33,122 bases of DNA, from contig WJIP01000395.1 in NCBI GenBank assembly GCA_014730185.1, forward strand, positions 1 to 33,122, written 5' to 3'. Under the pieces are notes generated by a model. That model ran no database searches and had not been told where the DNA came from. It worked only from the letters and a program-made list of their open reading frames with translations. Source of the stretch: Caldithrix sp. GTDB taxonomy: Bacteria; Calditrichota; Calditrichia; Calditrichales; Calditrichaceae. The first letter of the stretch is position 1. Each line of letters begins with the position of its first letter. Made by a program: the position numbers and the translations under genes. This document shows, in pieces, positions 14,972 through 28,447 of this stretch.

Positions 14972-15304
14972 TCACTCCCTAAAAAGCGTTTCGTCCACTT
15001 CTATTTCCATACGCAAAAGTGCAGCGCTGATGGTTTTGCCCTGCGCATCATGCTTAAGTGTAAGCGTGCCTCCGCCACCAAGGGCATTATGCAAAAGAAA
15101 GTTCAAAGCGCAGATATTTGGCAGTTCAAATCGTTCCACTTTACCTTTTACCATATTCCCAAAATGTTTTTTTACTTTATCAGCTGTAACATGTTTTTTA
15201 ATAATGGAATAATATTCCGGCTTCAAGGCAATAATGCCCACATTGGCGGTATCGCCTTTATCACCGGACCGGGCATGGGCTAACTCTATCAATTTAACTT
15301 TCAT
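14972..15304 (-). CDS. AtuA-like C-terminal (ferredoxin-fold) domain protein
   Basis: A 110-residue protein carrying the domain usually fused to the C-terminus of AtuA proteins: IELAHARSGDKGDTANVGI, FELPNICALNFLLHNALGGGG, then a TLKHDAQGKTISAALL strand pair. Its function is unclear. Start: the TTG at 15316 is possible, but ATG 15304 has GGAAAG 5 bp upstream, so I use it. It follows the AtuA gene on the same strand with a 40-bp gap, and xth starts 8 bp after its stop. In many bacteria the two domains are in one chain of about 590 residues; here they are separate, which suggests they form a complex of two subunits (inference). Confidence 0.82.
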   Translation of the reverse strand: MKVKLIELAHARSGDKGDTANVGIIALKPEYYSIIKKHVTADKVKKHFGNMVKGKVERFELPNICALNFLLHNALGGGGTLTLKHDAQGKTISAALLRMEIEVDETLFRE

Positions 15305-15344
15305 GTTGCTTTCCAATCTGTTTAATAGCCATGATCCACCGAGA

Positions 15345-16709
15345 TTATCCGGTCTCGATCGTTAATACCTTTGGTGAAACCATTTCTTTGCTGATCAACG
15401 CCGGCCAATAAGCGATTACATCCCGAACACGTGGACGACCTCCTCCGAATCCGGTGACATTAGGCGGACCGGTCAGTACCAACGGAACAATTTCATTAGC
15501 GAATTTTTGCATATCGGCTTTATTACGACCACGTACCCCAATTTGAAACACAATTTCATTGGGATCATCAATTTTATGCGCCGTTGTACCATGCGAAGCG
15601 TTGTATCCCAAAAATTCGGTTTGGATTTCATCAAATTTGAGGCCAAGGTACTCAATTCGTTTGCGAACAATTTCATCGGCCTTGTGAGCTTTTTTCAAAG
15701 CGTCCGGCCATGTATATGTCAGATTACCGATACATGTGTAACCATCAAAGTAGGAAATGGATACTTTATAATAAGGTGTATCCGGTTTTCCTTTAATATT
15801 TTTAATTTTCACCCGGTCTTTTCCAACGGTCTCCAGTTCTATCGTAGTAAAATCGGCCACTACGTCCGGCGTGATGTATTCGCGAGGATCTCCCAATTCA
15901 TACACAAGTTGTTCCTTAATGGTTTGTTCAGTGATGAGTCCACCCAGAGATTCATGCTTGGTGATAATGAGATGTCCATCGGGATAGGCTTCCACAATGG
16001 GGAAACCAATACGTTCCATTCGGGGTACATCTTGCCAGCCGGCAAAAAAATTACCACCGCTGGCCTGAGCACCACACTCGTTGATATGACCACCAACCAC
16101 ACCAGCGGCAAGTTTATCCCATTCGTCATTTTTCCAGCCGAACTCATGGATCATCGGTGCTAATGTTATGCCTGTATCCGTTACTCTTCCGGTTACAATA
16201 ATATGAGCACCCTGCTGCAATGCTTCCACCACCGGTTTAGCACCGAAATAGACGTTGGCGCTGGTAACTTGTTTACGAACGCTGCTCAGCGATTTCCCGG
16301 TTTCCATATTTTTTAAATCATTGCCACTGGCAATCAAACCATCCAGCTGATGAAGTATATCATCACCATAGATGGCAGCTATTTTCAAATCTCTAAAACC
16401 CTGCCTTTCTGCCACTTCCCGCATAGCCAGCATGCAACCTACCGGATTTACACCGCCGGCGTTTGTAATAACCCGGATATTTTTTTCCACCAGCGTCGGC
16501 AGTAAAGTATCCATAAGTGGTATAAAATCTTTAGCATAACCCAGGTCAGGGTTCCTGGATTTTTGTTTCTGCATAATCGACATCGTTAGTTCCGCAAGAT
16601 AATCCATGACCAGATAATCAATTTCCCCTTCATTTACCTGGTCGTAAGGGGCGTCAAAACGGTCGCCCCAATAGCCCTGTCCGCTGGCGATACGAATATA
16701 ATCCTTCAT
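15345..16709 (-). CDS. AtuA family protein (DUF1446)
   Basis: A 454-residue cytoplasmic protein of the acyclic terpene utilisation AtuA family. Signatures are RIASGQGYWGDRFDAP at the start, VITNAGGVNPVGC, IVTGRVTDTGITLAPMIHEFG, GGHINECGAQASGGNF, EFLGYNASHGTTA and VTGFGGGRPRVRDV near the end. The family is named for a gene of the Pseudomonas citronellol/geraniol pathway but occurs far more widely, often beside acyl-CoA genes; its reaction is not established. No carboxylase or CoA-transferase genes lie beside it here, so terpene use should not be assumed. The start is ATG 16709, with GGAG 5 bp before it, rather than the TTG one codon upstream. The second half of the usual fused protein is the next gene. 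Confidence 0.88.
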   Translation of the reverse strand: MKDYIRIASGQGYWGDRFDAPYDQVNEGEIDYLVMDYLAELTMSIMQKQKSRNPDLGYAKDFIPLMDTLLPTLVEKNIRVITNAGGVNPVGCMLAMREVAERQGFRDLKIAAIYGDDILHQLDGLIASGNDLKNMETGKSLSSVRKQVTSANVYFGAKPVVEALQQGAHIIVTGRVTDTGITLAPMIHEFGWKNDEWDKLAAGVVGGHINECGAQASGGNFFAGWQDVPRMERIGFPIVEAYPDGHLIITKHESLGGLITEQTIKEQLVYELGDPREYITPDVVADFTTIELETVGKDRVKIKNIKGKPDTPYYKVSISYFDGYTCIGNLTYTWPDALKKAHKADEIVRKRIEYLGLKFDEIQTEFLGYNASHGTTAHKIDDPNEIVFQIGVRGRNKADMQKFANEIVPLVLTGPPNVTGFGGGRPRVRDVIAYWPALISKEMVSPKVLTIETG

Positions 16710-16970
16710 CAATTCTCCATATTAATGTCATTTACTAAACAACTGGTAAATGCCGGATATAAGCACTATGTAATGCAATACCCCAAAAAATAATTTCATA
16801 AAAGCCGTTAAATTAGCAAATTAATGTTAATTTCAAAAATAGAAAGATAATTGAAAAATACAAACTCAAATTTTCAGATCAAAAGAGCAATGGAATATCC
16901 GTCGAGTGGAGCCGTTGTAGATGGCGAATTGCGGCATTTCATTGACAGCGATTTGGTAAATAGGCCATAT

Positions 16971-19878: not shown

Positions 19879-19910
19879 ACAAGTAACCATTATACCAGTA
19901 GGTGAACACC

Positions 19911-21209
19911 ATGCGTTTAAAATTTTCTATTCTTCTTATTATAATTCTCGGTGTGTCTATGGCCCATGCGGCCACGGTGCATCGAATCGTGATTGATGGG
20001 GTGATCAATCCGGCTGCGAAGGATTATATTGAAAAATCCATTCTTCGTGCGGAAGAAGAAAACGCTGAATTACTCATTATTCAGATGGATACACCGGGCG
20101 GTCTGATGAGTTCTATGCATGAGATCAGCAAGGCCATTCAGAATGCCTATGTACCGGTGGCGGTTTATGTGGCGCCCGGAGGCGCCCGTGCAGGCTCGGC
20201 AGGTGTTTATATTACATATGCGTCGCATATAGCCGTTATGGCTCCGGCTACCAATATCGGATCGGCACATCCCGTTTTCGGCAGCGGTATTGGTGGGCAA
20301 CAACCCGATTCGGCCAGCAGCGAAACCATGATGGAAAAAGTAATCAATGATGCTGTCGCTAAGATAAAAGCCGTAGCCGAGAAGCGAGGACGTAATGCGG
20401 AATGGGCGGAAAAAGCCGTGCGGGAAAGCGCTAATATCACGGCTGAAGAAGCTCTGGCATTGAATGTTATTGAATACATCGCGCCCGATACGGATTCATT
20501 ACTGACTGCTGTCGATGGCATAGTTATCAAATTGGATGTGGGGGTGGAAAAAGAACTGCGTACCAAAAATGTCCGTATCGTCACGTATGAAATGGACTGG
20601 CGGCAGCGTTTGCTGGATGTCATTTCCAATCCCAATATTGCTTATTTTTTAATGATTCTCGGGTTTTACGGATTATTGTTTGAATTGTACAGTCCCGGTG
20701 CTATATTGCCGGGAGTGGTAGGAGGTATTTCACTGATACTTGGATTGTATGCCCTGCAAACCCTTCCGGTGAATTATGCCGGTTTGTTGCTGATAATTTT
20801 TGCCATTATTTTGTTTTTATTGGAAATAAAGGTGCAAAGTTTTGGATTACTATCCATAGGAGGCGTAATTGCGTTGGTATTGGGAAGTGTTATGTTAATC
20901 GATAGTCCTTTTCCCTTTTTGCAGATATCCTGGCAGGTTATTTTAGGGGTGGTTATTATAACCATTTTGTTCTTTGGATTTGCCATCGGGATGGCCATAC
21001 GTACTTTTCGCAGTAAAGTCAATACCGGTCGCGAAGGTATGGTGGGCGAAATTGGAGAAGTTTATAAAACCATCAATCCTGAGGGGCGCATCAAAATTCA
21101 CGGGGAATTGTGGAAAGCCCTCAGCGATGAAAAGATAACAAAGGGAAAACGGGTTAAAATTGTTGAATATGATGGTAAAAATTTACTGGTAAAAGTAAAA
21201 AAGATTTAA
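19911..21209 (+). CDS. NfeD membrane-bound ClpP-class serine protease
   Basis: A 432-residue protein of the long NfeD (STOPP) type. A signal peptide (cleavage near AHA-AT, residue 20) leads a ClpP-like domain with [14 protein letters not shown], nucleophile Ser96 in [11 protein letters not shown], and the predicted general-base Lys143 in MEKVIND (aligned by eye to Ser97/Lys138 of Pyrococcus 1510-N). Four to five membrane helices follow, then a C-terminal OB-fold soluble domain ([13 protein letters not shown] to LLVKVKKI). The protease works with slipin in membrane protein quality control. ATG 19911 is preferred over the GTG at 19902 because the latter is part of its AGGTGA ribosome site (5 bp spacing). 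The slipin gene follows after 16 bp, as in most genomes. Confidence 0.92.
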
Positions 21210-21225
21210 AACAAAGGAGCCATTT

Positions 21226-21978
21226 ATGCCTTTTATGACAGCAATAATCGTTATTGTACTCCTGCTGCTGGCCAGCGCCATCAGGGTTTTGAAGGAGTAC
21301 GAACGCGGTGTGATCTTCCGTTTGGGCCGTCTGGTGGGATCCAAAGGACCCGGCCTTATCATACTTATCCCGATCATTGATAAGATGGAAAAAGTGAGCC
21401 TCAGAACCGTGGTAATGGACGTGCCTCCGCAGGATGTGATTACCAAAGACAATGTTTCCGTACAGGTTAATGCCGTGTTGTATTTTCGTGTACTCAATCC
21501 GGAAAAAAGCGTGATTGAAGTGGAAAATTTTGTGTTCGCCACCTCCCAGCTGGCGCAGACCACGTTACGCAGTACGGTCGGTCAAGCGGATTTGGATGAA
21601 CTGCTGACCGAGCGCGATAAAATTAACGCCCAGTTGCAGGAAATAATCGATACGCATTCCGATCCCTGGGGTATCAAAGTATCACTGGTGGAAGTAAAAC
21701 ATATCGACTTACCGGAAGCCATGCAGCGGGCGATGGCCCGTCAGGCAGAGGCCGAGCGTGAACGGCGGGCTAAGGTGATTGCCGCGGAAGGTGAATTCCA
21801 GGCCGCCCGAAAATTAACCGATGCCGCTAAAATTATCGATGAAAATCCGTCCGCATTACAATTACGCTTTCTGCAGACATTAATTGAAGTATCGGCAGAA
21901 AAGAATTCCACAACGGTCTTCCCGATTCCTATTGACCTGTTTAAACCCTTTCTGGAAAAGGCAGCCAAAGAATCCTGA
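21226..21978 (+). CDS. Slipin / SPFH (stomatin-like) membrane protein
   Basis: A 250-residue stomatin-family protein that associates with the membrane and oligomerises. It begins with a hydrophobic hairpin or helix ([17 protein letters not shown]), then the SPFH domain with [38 protein letters not shown] and [21 protein letters not shown] coiled coil ([23 protein letters not shown]) and a C-terminal region ending [12 protein letters not shown] follow. It partners with NfeD, whose protease cleaves slipin in Pyrococcus; the pair is thought to help maintain the membrane. Strong AAGGAG upstream and a 16-bp gap to nfeD mark one operon. A good terminator follows. Confidence 0.94.
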
Positions 21979-22012
21979 ATAACCGGTTAAGCGAGTTAAC
22001 CAAACGTTGTTG

Positions 22013-22047
22013 AAACCTGCTGTCATTCGATGGCAGGTTTTTTTGTT
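22013..22047 (+). terminator. Rho-independent terminator of nfeD-slipin
   Basis: AAACCTGC (22013-22020) pairs perfectly with GCAGGTTT (22033-22040), loop 12 nt with a further inner CAT/ATG pairing, and the arm runs into a T-rich tract. It lies 35 bp after the slipin stop. Confidence 0.85.
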
Positions 22048-22233: not shown

Positions 22234-23097
22234 ATGTCTCTGCGCAATGTATCTGTTTTTATGATTGGGGCCTTTTTGTTGAGTTGTTCACCGCAAAGGC
22301 TGGTTATTCGCCAACTGGAACCTGTTCTTGATAATAGTGTAAAAGCTTTGTACGAAGAAGGCGATTTACAACTGGCTGAACAAGCAATGGCAGCGGATTT
22401 AAAACTTGTGGAAGGATTACTTAAAAGTGATCCCCAAAATGAAAAATTATTGACTATCGCTGCGCAGGGTTATGCCGGTTATGCCATGGGTTTTGTGGAA
22501 GATAAACAACCGCAGCGAGCCAAAAAATTGTATTTAAGAGCCAGAGATTATGGTTTGCGCTTACTGTTTGATGACGATTCCATTGAAGCGCATCTGAACA
22601 AACCTATAAACCAGTTCGAGAGTCTCATTGCTCAAAAAAAGGAGGATGAGCTGCCCGGTTTGTTTTGGTCCGGATTTGCCTGGGGCGGTTATCTCAATTT
22701 ATCGCTTAACGAGCCCACAGCATTGATCGATTTTCCAAAAGTACAGGCTATTATGAAAAGAGTCGCGACCTTGCAACCGGATTATTTTTATGGTGGGGTT
22801 TATCTGTTTTTAGGGGCGGTATACGGTATGAAGCCCAGAATGCTCGGTGGAAATCCGGAAAAGGCTCTGCAGTATTTTCAAAAGAACCTGCAAATGACCG
22901 GTGAACAATTTTTATTGACCTATATTTACATGGCCCGTTATTACGCGGCCAAGGTGCTGGATGAAGAAAAATTCGATAACTATATCCAACAAATTGAATC
23001 CGCTTCCGAGGATATTTTACCGGAGGCGCGGCTGCTGAATGCCATTGCAAAAAAGAAAGCCCGGTTGCTGAAAGAAAAAAAATCGGACATCTTCTAG
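22234..23097 (+). CDS. TatT: TRAP transporter-associated lipoprotein
   Basis: A 287-residue lipoprotein of the TatT family (TRAP-associated protein T; characterised in Treponema pallidum as a partner of a TRAP solute-binding protein). The N-terminus is a lipoprotein signal with Cys18 after FLLS. The rest is all-helical and TPR-like: LAEQAMAADLKLVEGLLKSDP, AAQGYAGYAMGFVED, GLFWSGFAWGGYLNL and YFYGGVYLFLGAVYGMKPRMLGGNPEKALQYF, close to the family signature. TatT trimers bind solute-binding protein and may hold hydrophobic ligands. The DctP gene follows 30 bp downstream, which strongly supports the assignment. GAGAG upstream is a weak ribosome site. Confidence 0.85.
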   Translation: MSLRNVSVFMIGAFLLSCSPQRLVIRQLEPVLDNSVKALYEEGDLQLAEQAMAADLKLVEGLLKSDPQNEKLLTIAAQGYAGYAMGFVEDKQPQRAKKLYLRARDYGLRLLFDDDSIEAHLNKPINQFESLIAQKKEDELPGLFWSGFAWGGYLNLSLNEPTALIDFPKVQAIMKRVATLQPDYFYGGVYLFLGAVYGMKPRMLGGNPEKALQYFQKNLQMTGEQFLLTYIYMARYYAAKVLDEEKFDNYIQQIESASEDILPEARLLNAIAKKKARLLKEKKSDIF

Positions 23098-23127
23098 TTG
23101 AAAACACTAACGCATAAGGAATTGATT

Positions 23128-24144
23128 ATGTATAAACGCTCATTGCTCATAGCTGGCTTGATCTTATTGTTTACCTTCGGATTAAATGCCAAACCGACCA
23201 CCATAAAATTTGCCACCCTGGCACCGGACGGATCCACATGGATGGATGTGATGAATGCTTTTAAACAAGCGGTGGAGGACAGTACCGACGGGCAGATTGT
23301 GTTCAAGATTTATTCCGGCGGGGTACAGGGTGATGAGGTGGATGTGCTGCGCAAAATGCGTTTTAGACAGTTACACAGCGCCGGATTTACAGGGGTAGGT
23401 CTGGGGGAAATTTTGCCGGAGGTACGGATTCTGGATGCCCCCTTTTTATTCCGCAGTTATGATGAAATCGATTTTATATCCGATAAATTTTTTGACCGCT
23501 TTGCCGCAGCTTTTGAAGAAAAAGGTTTTGTCCTTTTAGGCTGGGCTGAGGTTGGTTTTGTGTACATTTACACCAACACACCCGTGCGCCAGCCGTCTGA
23601 CTTTAAAGGGGTTAAAATGTGGATGTGGGAAGGTGATCCCCTGGCTCAGGCCACCTTTGAGGCCTTTAACGTGCATCCCATTCCGCTGTCTATAACGGAT
23701 GTGCTGACATCGTTGCAAACCGGATTGATTGATGGGGTTTACACTTCACCCATGGGCTGCGTGACATTGCAGTGGTTTACCAAACTAAAATATGTACTCG
23801 ATCTTCCCCTGGCCAATTCCAATGGGGCGGTTCTGGTCTCCAAACAAGTATTTAATCGTTTGAGTAAAGAGCATCAGAATATATTACGAAGGTTAGGTCG
23901 TAAATACTTTGATGAACTGACCCGCCGTAGCCGGATTGATAATAATAAATCGCAGCAGGAAATGCTCAAATCCGATATAAAGAAAATCACAATCGATGAT
24001 CCGGCAGAGATAAAAAAATTTGAATCCATCGGAGCTGAAGCACGCCGGGAATTGGTCGGCAGGTTATACGATCAGCAATTACTGGATAAAGTGGAAAAGG
24101 CTGTCCGGCAATATCGTCATCAACAAAAAACGGGTGGTGAATGA
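23128..24144 (+). CDS. TRAP transporter solute-binding protein, DctP family
   Basis: A 338-residue periplasmic binding protein. The signal peptide (MYKRSLLIAGLILLFTFGLNA) is cleaved near residue 21. The DctP fold is clear: IKFATLAPDGSTWMDVM, IYSGGVQGDEVDVLRKM, EVRILDAPFLFRSYDE, a GVKMWMWEGDPLAQ loop, and LQTGLIDGVYTSPMGC. The ligand-binding Arg of sialic acid and C4-dicarboxylate binders ('R-x-...') is not in its usual place ('KGVKMWMWEGD' replaces 'KGxKxR'), so a different ligand, perhaps hydrophobic as proposed for TatP, is likely. ATG 23128 with AAGGA 7 bp upstream is preferred to TTG 23098. It pairs with TatT. The usual DctQ and DctM membrane subunits are absent beside it: the next gene encodes a Nif3 protein, overlapping by 4 bp. 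Confidence 0.9.
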   Translation: MYKRSLLIAGLILLFTFGLNAKPTTIKFATLAPDGSTWMDVMNAFKQAVEDSTDGQIVFKIYSGGVQGDEVDVLRKMRFRQLHSAGFTGVGLGEILPEVRILDAPFLFRSYDEIDFISDKFFDRFAAAFEEKGFVLLGWAEVGFVYIYTNTPVRQPSDFKGVKMWMWEGDPLAQATFEAFNVHPIPLSITDVLTSLQTGLIDGVYTSPMGCVTLQWFTKLKYVLDLPLANSNGAVLVSKQVFNRLSKEHQNILRRLGRKYFDELTRRSRIDNNKSQQEMLKSDIKKITIDDPAEIKKFESIGAEARRELVGRLYDQQLLDKVEKAVRQYRHQQKTGGE

Positions 24145-24896
24145 TGCAAAGGGATGAATTGGTAAATTATTTACATACGTATTTACACACCGCTGATTTC
24201 AGTGATTTGTGCCCCAATGGCTTGCAGGTGGAAGGTCGGCATCAGGTTAAACACATTGTCACAGGAGTGAGCGCCTGTGTTGAATTATTTGAAAAAGCGG
24301 TGCAAAAAAAGGCGGATGCTGTATTGGTGCATCACGGCATCATATGGAATTTTGAACGGCCGGTGTATAAAGGGGGCTATAAAAAGCGGGTTAAAATGTT
24401 ATTGGAAAATGATATCAATTTACTGGGTTACCATCTGCCTTTAGACGCCCACCCTGAAGTTGGTAACAATGCCCAGATTGCCAATATATTGAATATGGAT
24501 ACGATAGAACCCTTCGGCGAAATGAAAGGGCAATATATTGGTTTTAAAGGAACGGTTGCCGATTATACAGCGGATACCTTATTCGCCCGAATTAGGGATA
24601 ATATTAACTCCCATGCTTTGATTTTCCCCTTCGGACCGGAGCGCATCAGACACATCGGAGTAATCAGCGGAGGAGCGCAGAAAGAAGTGAAACAAGCAGT
24701 TTTACAAGGATTGGATGCTTTTATCACCGGAGAAGTCAGTGAGCATATAATGCATTATGTAAAAGAGGAGGGCATCCATTTTATTTCCGCCGGGCATCAT
24801 GCCTCTGAACGCGTGGGCATTATCGCCCTGGGTCGCCATTTGCAGGAAAAGTTTGATGTGCAGGTTGAATTTATAGATATACCAAATCCCGTCTGA
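24141..24896 (+). CDS. Nif3-like dinuclear metal centre protein
   Basis: A 251-residue member of the NIF3/YbgI family (often annotated GTP cyclohydrolase 1 type 2, though activity is not established). It forms a toroidal hexamer with a two-metal site. Motifs: SDLCPNGLQVEG at the start, ADAVLVHHGIIW (metal His pair), LLGYHLPLDAHPEVGNN, VISGGAQKEV, DAFITGEVSEHIMHY, and the closing GHHASERVGI. The length matches the compact form without the middle insertion. The ATGA overlap with dctP indicates coupled translation. A functional tie to TatT/DctP is not implied; overlap may just reflect operon packing. Confidence 0.93.
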   Translation: MMQRDELVNYLHTYLHTADFSDLCPNGLQVEGRHQVKHIVTGVSACVELFEKAVQKKADAVLVHHGIIWNFERPVYKGGYKKRVKMLLENDINLLGYHLPLDAHPEVGNNAQIANILNMDTIEPFGEMKGQYIGFKGTVADYTADTLFARIRDNINSHALIFPFGPERIRHIGVISGGAQKEVKQAVLQGLDAFITGEVSEHIMHYVKEEGIHFISAGHHASERVGIIALGRHLQEKFDVQVEFIDIPNPV

Positions 24897-25170: not shown

Positions 25171-27378
<2,208 letters not shown>

Positions 27379-27444
27379 TTATTTATTATACGTGCACGAT
27401 TTAAATTAACTGATGTTGTTGTATTCGGGATGCATATACTCCGC

Positions 27445-27939
27445 TTACTCTGCGGGAGGTGCTCCCATGTTTTTACTTCTTTCAATGGATTGCAACGCCA
27501 GGTATCGTTCTCCGAATTTTGCAATGTTTTCCAGCTCTGTATCAAACTGATCGAAATGCTGTTCCTCATCGGCAACCAAATCTTCAAATAGCTTTTTAGT
27601 TACAGAGTCTGCATTTTTGGCGCATTCATTAGCCCAGGTATTGTAAGCCTTTACCGCATCACTTTCCATTTGGCAGGCCATTTCCAGCATACTTTTTATA
27701 TCATGAACATTTTTAACCGCCCGCGAAGCTTTTAATTCGATTTCCCCCTTCAAAAACAAAATGCGTTCAGAGAGGTCTTCCACGTGTGTCATTTCATCGA
27801 TAGCCGAACGTTTAAACATGCCGGCAAGCAGATCAAAGCTCTGATCATCACAGTGGAAGTGAAAGTACATATATTGATGGACCGCGGTCATTTCGTCAGC
27901 AATGGCTTTGTTTAACAATGTAATGCTTTCTTCATGCAT
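27445..27939 (-). CDS. bfr: Bacterioferritin-type iron-storage protein
   Basis: A 164-residue four-helix ferritin-like protein. The ferroxidase ligands Glu16, Glu49, His52, Glu92, Glu125 and His128 keep exactly the spacing of E. coli bacterioferritin (Glu18, Glu51, His54, Glu94, Glu127, His130, shifted by two). Met50, equivalent to the haem-ligating Met52, is also present, so haem binding between subunits is possible. These proteins oxidise Fe2+ with oxygen or peroxide and store it as a mineral core. The last residues (about 150-164) are an unrelated hydrophilic tail. Strong AAGGAG before the ATG. The gene lies between perR and katG, 106 bp and 93 bp away respectively, as one expects of a peroxide regulon. 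A Dps is less likely given the residue spacing. Confidence 0.9.
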   Translation of the reverse strand: MHEESITLLNKAIADEMTAVHQYMYFHFHCDDQSFDLLAGMFKRSAIDEMTHVEDLSERILFLKGEIELKASRAVKNVHDIKSMLEMACQMESDAVKAYNTWANECAKNADSVTKKLFEDLVADEEQHFDQFDTELENIAKFGERYLALQSIERSKNMGAPPAE

Positions 27940-27996
27940 CGAAATTTCTCCTTATAAATCTGTACTCTAAATGGTTAAAAAAATTCTAGTATTCAG

Positions 27997-28007
27997 AACG
28001 ATTATTA
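27997..28007. promoter_or_regulatory. Possible PerR operator half-site upstream of bfr
   Basis: AACGATTATTA is identical over 11 bp to part of the perR operator (28454-28474, read on the minus strand). It lies 58 bp before the bfr start. Only one arm of the palindrome is well kept, so the match may be partial. Confidence 0.4.
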
Positions 28008-28045
28008 TTTATGAATCTATGTTTTATTCATTAATTCAAAGCACC

Positions 28046-28447
28046 TTATTTTATTTTGCAGTCTTCACACACGCCAAAAAATTCCAGTTTATGGTGGTGT
28101 ACAGTGAAGCCGGTTAGTTGGGTCGCCTGTGTATTCAGATCATGATAAATGGGCATTTCAAAGTCGAGAATTTTTCCACATAATTCGCAGATCAGATGAT
28201 AATGCGGTTCCGTGTTTGCCTCAAACCGATCAAAGGTACTGCCAAAATGTATTTTTTTGACCAGCCCCATATCGATGAGTACGGTTAAATTGCGATATAC
28301 AGTACCCAGGCTGAGCTGCGGAAACTCTTTTTTGATTTGTTCATAAAGCCAGTCCGCTGTCGGATGTGTATCGGTTGAGCGTAATAGTTCCAATATACGG
28401 TCGCGATGTTTACTCTGTCTAAATTTTTTCTGTTCTGTTTTGCACAT
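28046..28447 (-). CDS. perR: PerR-type Fur-family peroxide regulator
   Basis: A 133-residue Fur-family repressor. The DNA-binding winged helix contains LSLGTVYRNLTVLIDMGLVKK. The regulatory metal site follows PerR: His28, His82, His84 and Asp95 (PerR Asp104, which is Glu in Fur), while the position of PerR Asp85 is Glu76. The structural zinc site is intact with CxxC pairs Cys87/Cys90 and Cys127/Cys130. In PerR, Fe-catalysed oxidation of the regulatory histidines releases DNA. The neighbours, bacterioferritin and katG, are typical PerR targets. An upstream promoter with a palindrome in the start region suggests autoregulation. A zinc or iron sensor (Zur/Fur) is the alternative. Confidence 0.88.
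   Translation of the reverse strand: MCKTEQKKFRQSKHRDRILELLRSTDTHPTADWLYEQIKKEFPQLSLGTVYRNLTVLIDMGLVKKIHFGSTFDRFEANTEPHYHLICELCGKILDFEMPIYHDLNTQATQLTGFTVHHHKLEFFGVCEDCKIK

Follow-up and report, generated by a model that had tools for sequence, protein, structure and literature searches.

The tatT-dctP-nif3 locus

The window, that is, the whole stretch of DNA analysed here (33,122 nucleotides), is contig C356 of a 4.10-Mb Calditrichota MAG composed of 398 contigs and 96.5% complete. The features of the window that matter for the argument are the following:

19902-21209, plus strand: gene of an NfeD1b-type membrane protein (PF24961, PF25145, PF01957), an upstream neighbour kept in families f1-f3
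21226-21978, plus strand: gene of a Band 7/SPFH (slipin-like) protein (PF01145, E 7.9e-38), an upstream neighbour also kept in families f1-f3
22012-22041, plus strand: terminator-like hairpin, downstream of the Band7 gene and upstream of tatT (13-pair stem, T-tail)
22234-23097, plus strand: tatT, for the T component of a TPAT (TRAP) transporter, a lipoprotein of the TPR type (lipobox LLSC, Cys18; PF16811)
23128-24144, plus strand: dctP of the TPAT type, for a solute-binding protein of the periplasm that has a cleavable signal peptide but no lipobox (Trp165; PF03480, NF037995)
24141-24896, plus strand: nif3/DUF34 gene (PF01784) with an ATGA overlap with dctP, taken as a co-directional neighbour and not as a part of the transporter

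The tatT, dctP and nif3 frames are stop-free at these coordinates, and the matches of their products to PF16811 (E 1.6e-72, residues 42-287), PF03480 (E 2.2e-39) and PF01784 (E 2e-62) are far above the cut-offs; DctP also matches the NCBIfam model TRAP_S1 (NF037995) with 299 bits, for a cut-off of 50. The listed dctP frame starts at TTG 23098, and the ATG at 23128, which precedes the signal peptide, appears to be the likelier start. The initial annotation had described these three genes, the ATGA overlap and a window devoid of dctQ and dctM, and all of this is borne out by the family searches and the sequence: the overlap is read at 24141-24144, and none of the DctM or DctQ matches of this genome falls on the contig of the window. 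The exact overlap (gap of -4) is found in three of the 17 genomes with adjoining dctP and nif3, the window included, the remaining genomes presenting gaps of 2-139 bp or start-choice-dependent overlaps of 8 and 38 bp.

Since the hairpin at 22012-22041 separates the Band7 gene from tatT, tatT-dctP-nif3 probably form their own transcription unit, as judged from the sequence. Terminator-like sites are not in excess in the region (8, against a shuffle mean of 6.4), nor are promoter-like sites (13, against 14.1).

Two other gene groups of the window, both on the minus strand, can be mentioned. At 25171-28447, genes of a FUR-family regulator, a ferritin-like protein and a KatG-type peroxidase stand in a row, likely as an oxidative-stress or iron operon, and at 14972-16712, AtuA and the AtuA ferredoxin-like domain are encoded by two adjoining genes.

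The permease genes are located elsewhere in the genome

Family searches over all contigs retrieved a single match each for TatT, DctP and DctQ in this genome, DctQ being located at C344:407-781. DctM is matched only at C344:6-335 (model positions 3-115) and C95:5085-5549 (model positions 259-413), both pieces lying at contig ends on compatible strands. They align to residues 17-119 (82% identity) and 268-423 (76%) of the 423-aa DctM of a related genome (G014), and a SixA-like gene is found downstream of dctM in both genomes. Because the pieces match separate parts of the same protein, we read them as one dctM gene broken by an assembly gap, with about 430 bp absent from the assembly. The dctQ and dctM genes overlap by 4 bp. 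The genome thus has one dctQ and one dctM, on contigs other than that of the window, and does not present the single T-P-Q-M operon of Treponema pallidum. We judge the single operon to be a feature of the layout, not of the machine, as KSB1 and Nitrospina genomes also have separate TPAT-type QM genes.

The phylogenetic position of this DctM was assessed with three trees: 57 Calditrichota sequences, 98 sequences including other phyla (excluding the very divergent L106 and L112 and fragments shorter than 300 aa, except the two of this genome) and a 50-row subset, from which these two fragments were excluded. In the 57- and 98-row trees, a TPAT DctM clade was recovered with an SH-aLRT of 100 (78 rows in the larger tree), distinct from the dicarboxylate type. 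The two pieces from this genome and all other included separated DctM of families f1 and f2 group with every included TatT-linked DctM, the latter coming from Calditrichota, Ignavibacteriota, Bacteroidota, Pseudomonadota and others. The f1 and f2 DctM are monophyletic in the 98-row tree (SH-aLRT 96) and in the 50-row tree (bootstrap 88, SH-aLRT 93), and do not form one clade in the 57-row Calditrichota tree. On the 50-row tree, the split state requires four changes: one for f1 and f2 together, two in KSB1 and one in Nitrospina.

Gene order in relatives

We compared 40 Calditrichota genomes from six families (f1-f6), f1 and f2 being the order of the window (21 genomes). The TatT relatives were found with an alignment (A1), and a scan of the genome contigs with the single TatT sequence gave no confirmed relative. 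TatT and TPAT-type DctP are present in 18 of the 21 f1 and f2 genomes. In 17 of these 18, nif3 is the next gene after dctP, the contig of the remaining one (G013) ending inside dctP, and in none does dctQM adjoin tatT-dctP. A TPAT-type DctM is encoded elsewhere in 18 of the 21 genomes, all except G006, G007 and G013. In G001, a single contig of 4,978,541 bases, tatT is at 4.746 Mb and dctQM at 3.569 Mb, 1.18 Mb apart.

In the other families the genes are together. All three f3 genomes have joined tatT-dctP-dctQ-dctM, with NfeD and Band7 upstream and nif3 elsewhere in two of them, the third (G021) lying on a contig too short to show this. In families f4-f6, dctP-dctQ-dctM are joined in 14 of 16 genomes, with TatT cut off or separated in some; the other two are outside this count (the DctP or DctM regions of G027 and G029 lie outside the gene-order data). 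The retention of joined genes in f3 and f4-f6 indicates that the joined order is ancestral and that of the window derived. The initial annotation had considered that relatives might reveal a recent insertion; on the contrary, the split is common to the 18 TatT-bearing genomes among the 21 of f1 and f2 and is therefore old.

Outside the phylum, dctQ or dctM lies within 6 kb at 38 of 55 named TatT loci, a set that leaves out L117, labelled Caldisericota and counted here with Calditrichota. Among the 17 loci without dctQ or dctM at this distance, eight have dctP. Of these eight, three KSB1 loci (L128, L130 and L158) and one from Nitrospina (L163) were examined further: each of their genomes encodes a TPAT-type DctM elsewhere, and the fetched flanks of this distant dctM contain no dctP.

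Regarding L117 itself (JAGHBR010000412.1, labelled Caldisericaceae), its gene order is that of contig C155 of the Calditrichota genome G002, and the label is probably wrong. In some relatives, genes are inserted between tatT and dctP, encoding a DUF5686/CarbopepD_reg protein, an MFS transporter or, on the opposite strand, a secreted protein with a Por secretion tail (L039:8051-10447; L079:10487-11815; L042:3970-6240).

Joint loss and correlated divergence

Twenty-three genomes are near-complete (completeness of 90% or more, contamination of 5% or less), and 22 of them encode TatT together with DctP and DctM of the TPAT type. In the sole exception, G006, none of the four families (TatT, DctP, DctQ and DctM) is matched; at its corresponding locus (L040), NfeD-Band7-nif3 are kept and tatT and dctP are gone from between them. 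As one loss event this is weak as statistics, and it takes out two separate loci together while leaving nif3. Mismatches are found in less complete genomes: TatT and DctP are present without a TPAT-type DctM in G007 (87% complete) and G013 (76%), and DctM is present without TatT and TPAT-type DctP in G010 (72%) and G012 (73%). Genome incompleteness would be the simplest reason for these four cases.

Distance correlations were calculated from 12 split genomes, three of which are nearly identical in DctM; as the 12 genomes are related, the permutation counts given here serve as a guide only and not as strict probabilities. The DctP distances correlate at 0.89 with those of the distant DctM, compared with 0.66 for the adjoining Nif3. 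Given Nif3, NfeD and Band7, the partial correlation is 0.80 for DctP-DctM and 0.65 for TatT-DctP (0 of 5000 permutations in both cases), 0.74 for DctQ-DctM, 0.65 for DctP-DctQ, 0.43 for TatT-DctM and 0.39 for TatT-DctQ. That of DctP-Nif3, given NfeD and Band7, is 0.10 (1471 of 5000 permutations), and that of DctM-Nif3 is 0.36.

The TatT and DctP proteins

The single-chain AlphaFold2 model of TatT (pLDDT 93.9) matches T. pallidum TatT (4di3_A, Z 29.8, rmsd 2.2 over 255 residues; 3u64, Z 29.4) and 8g52, titled as a bacterial TPAT family transporter (Z 29.4). Outside the T-component family the best match has a Z of 17.9, and unrelated TPR proteins are far below the TatT structures. Cys18 is invariant in all 41 TatT sequences of alignment A3. 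The protein thus combines a predicted helical TPR-like pore fold with the lipobox, as expected of a TPAT T component. The residue that follows a lipobox cysteine bears on outer-membrane placement in lipoprotein sorting. Here, a serine directly follows Cys18, and TatT probably sits in the outer membrane, on its periplasmic face.

The DctP model (pLDDT 94.3) has the fold of a TRAP binding protein, with Z scores of 33-35 to canonical ones; with a Z of 32.7, T. pallidum TatP (3u65) comes no closer than the other TRAP binding proteins. A conserved arginine of TRAP binding proteins clamps the carboxylate of the ligand. In the corresponding column, placed by sequence alignment and not by pocket superposition, all 13 non-TPAT DctP have this arginine, whereas the 34 TPAT-type Calditrichota DctP have tryptophan (33) or phenylalanine (1), a count restricted to fetched regions, which hold 47 of the 61 DctP matches. 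Among the named loci, tryptophan is found in 64 of 66, with two fragments left unaligned. Trp165, Trp167 and Asp170 are invariant in the 34 TPAT-type DctP of alignment A2. The DctP of the window, with Trp165, is therefore not of the canonical dicarboxylate type; it is encoded with a TatT and has no clamp arginine, as is characteristic of TPAT. In the T. pallidum row of our alignment this position is alanine, whereas tryptophan is the rule among the DctP examined here; TatP homologues are mostly described with alanine in the relevant section of a review (PMC5812351). In TPAT-type DctP the arginine segment is replaced by Trp-x-Trp-x-Gly-Asp, which distinguishes them from the other DctP in almost every sequence examined; Trp165 in particular is a specific position bearing on what TPAT proteins bind. 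By analogy, the ligand of TatT-DctP is probably hydrophobic.

Nif3, upstream sequences and neighbours

The initial annotation had viewed the pair as coupled to Nif3. This is so for the gene order in f1 and f2, and does not extend to function: G006 keeps nif3 without the transporter, and the Nif3 distances do not follow those of DctP, so that the tie does not look functional. We take nif3 as a co-transcribed neighbour or passenger without a transport role, and not as a subunit. The consulted portion of a review of DUF34, in which a role as metal chaperone or insertase is proposed for the family, mentions no link to TRAP transport (PMC8469502). Separately, PF01784 finds no nif3 in the 16 genomes of f4-f6 (G024-G039), in contrast to the described ubiquity of the family.

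A dctQM pair co-regulated with tatT in the same genome had also been envisaged. The pair exists; for co-regulation, the words shared upstream of tatT and dctQ remain at chance level, with at most one of 40 shuffles as good in only one of 16 genomes, as do those shared upstream of nfeD and dctQ (one of 14 genomes). The neighbours of dctM, considered as a clue to the substrate, encode a GNAT protein, an APH-type kinase, TrkH, a secreted M6 peptidase and others, without a consistent theme.

A probable TPAT importer encoded in two places

Together, these observations make it highly probable that the window encodes the periplasmic half of an ordinary TPAT importer, whose dctQM genes were relocated within the same genome and whose neighbour nif3 has no transport role. 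The suggestion that the pair feeds a remote permease is thus supported: the genome has one dctQM pair, and its DctM belongs to the TatT-linked clade. Following the T. pallidum model, in which a hydrophobic ligand goes from TatT to TatP and from TatP to TatQM (PMC5812351), TatT would take a hydrophobic or amphipathic ligand into its helical pore and hand it over, by contact, to the soluble DctP. DctP would in turn deliver it to DctQM in the inner membrane, import presumably being driven by an ion gradient. The ancestor would have had tatT-dctP-dctQ-dctM as one operon, and in the common ancestor of f1 and f2 dctQM would have separated and nif3 come to follow dctP. The chance-level upstream words of tatT and dctQ and the four incomplete genomes with mismatched gene content count against this reading.

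The initial annotation had also proposed that the pair works alone, for example in lipid transfer. TatT and DctP would then be a periplasmic lipid carrier pair without a TRAP permease, like the sterol carriers BstB/BstC, the remote dctQM serving otherwise. The TatT family is indeed also active outside TRAP systems: BstC, of the T-component family, has a link to sterol transport, its partners there being a binding protein of the phosphonate type and an RND protein (PMC10942540). Some TatT loci, moreover, have no dctP nearby, as in four of four from Spirochaetota. However, a permease-independent pair of this kind would be expected in a genome without cognate DctQM, and this genome has one. Its only DctP is that of the window, which would leave dctQM without any alternative binding protein of this type; its DctM falls within the TPAT clade, the divergence of DctP parallels that of the remote DctM, and all four families are gone in G006. 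We therefore regard a lone carrier pair as unlikely. A second role could have been gained by the split pair, with the separately expressed periplasmic half also buffering or chaperoning lipids alongside the NfeD-Band7 membrane proteins and dctQM importing part of the cargo. This would fit the presence of NfeD-Band7 upstream of tatT in f1-f3 and at one KSB1 locus (L130), and the separation permits differing expression levels. Nevertheless, no evidence was found of NfeD or Band7 touching TatT, a terminator-like hairpin lies between Band7 and tatT in the window, and G006 keeps NfeD-Band7-nif3 without TatT, which makes this second role unlikely as well. Little likelihood is likewise attached to the broader conjecture that the operon split freed TatT-DctP from a fixed permease ratio, the periplasmic half being also a lipid buffer or shuttle tied to NfeD-Band7 and DctQM serving part of the flux.

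Finally, the separation could be an assembly artefact, as the MAG is fragmented in 398 contigs and its own dctM is broken at contig ends. This is hardly credible, since a 33-kb contig carries tatT, dctP and nif3 without interruption and continues into katG, the single-contig G001 has tatT and dctQM far apart, and all 18 TatT-bearing f1 and f2 genomes agree. Thus, with an importer encoded in two places as the preferred reading, a TatT-DctP pair lacking dctQM next to it does not indicate a lipid carrier that needs no permease. Orthology and correlated divergence can reveal the cognate permease elsewhere in the genome, and TRAP annotation based on adjacency will miss split systems.

Comparison with known systems

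The T. pallidum TatQM gene, which we take to be Tp0958, has its counterpart here in another place, as two unfused genes. The primary papers on this system are reportedly Deka 2012 and Brautigam 2012; our literature search found no description of a split TPAT, although these papers could still mention one. The main text of the Caldithrix abyssi genome paper does not contain the term TRAP (PMC5317091). In the review section on T. pallidum, the TPAT is TatT-TatP-TatQM, with Tp0956-Tp0957 as the first two genes, and both of these proteins are called lipoproteins, whereas the DctP examined here has a plain signal peptide (PMC5812351). The two systems share the TatT fold (Z 29.8), a TRAP-type DctP (3u65, Z 32.7) without the canonical arginine, and a single complement of T, P, Q and M genes in the genome, and differ at the arginine position (tryptophan here, alanine in T. 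pallidum in the alignment). Canonical TRAP DctPQM systems are alike in the DctP fold (Z 33-35) and the DctQM families; in contrast, they have the clamp arginine (13 of 13 non-TPAT DctP), separate DctM clades and no TatT. The sterol-binding T-component protein BstC of Methylococcus capsulatus (7T1S) shares the superfamily and the general fold (Z 19.9), but is partnered by an RND protein and a binding protein of the phosphonate type instead of DctP and DctQM (PMC10942540).

Other arrangements of TatT-family genes were also observed. Four Spirochaetota loci (L165, L170, L175 and L176, L170 being a 4-kb contig) have no dctP or dctQM within 6 kb. On a gammaproteobacterial chromosome (CP070821; L177:7923-9493), tatT is followed by a shortened dctP frame and no dctQM lies within 6 kb, which may reflect a TPAT in decay. 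In the single-contig genome G039 (L092:6026-9857 and L093:7149-8941), tatT-dctP are found with a fused 623-aa DctQM branching at the base of the TPAT clade, the DctP of this set having phenylalanine instead of tryptophan, and a lone native TPAT-type dctQM is located elsewhere; this arrangement looks like a replacement by a Treponema-like set.
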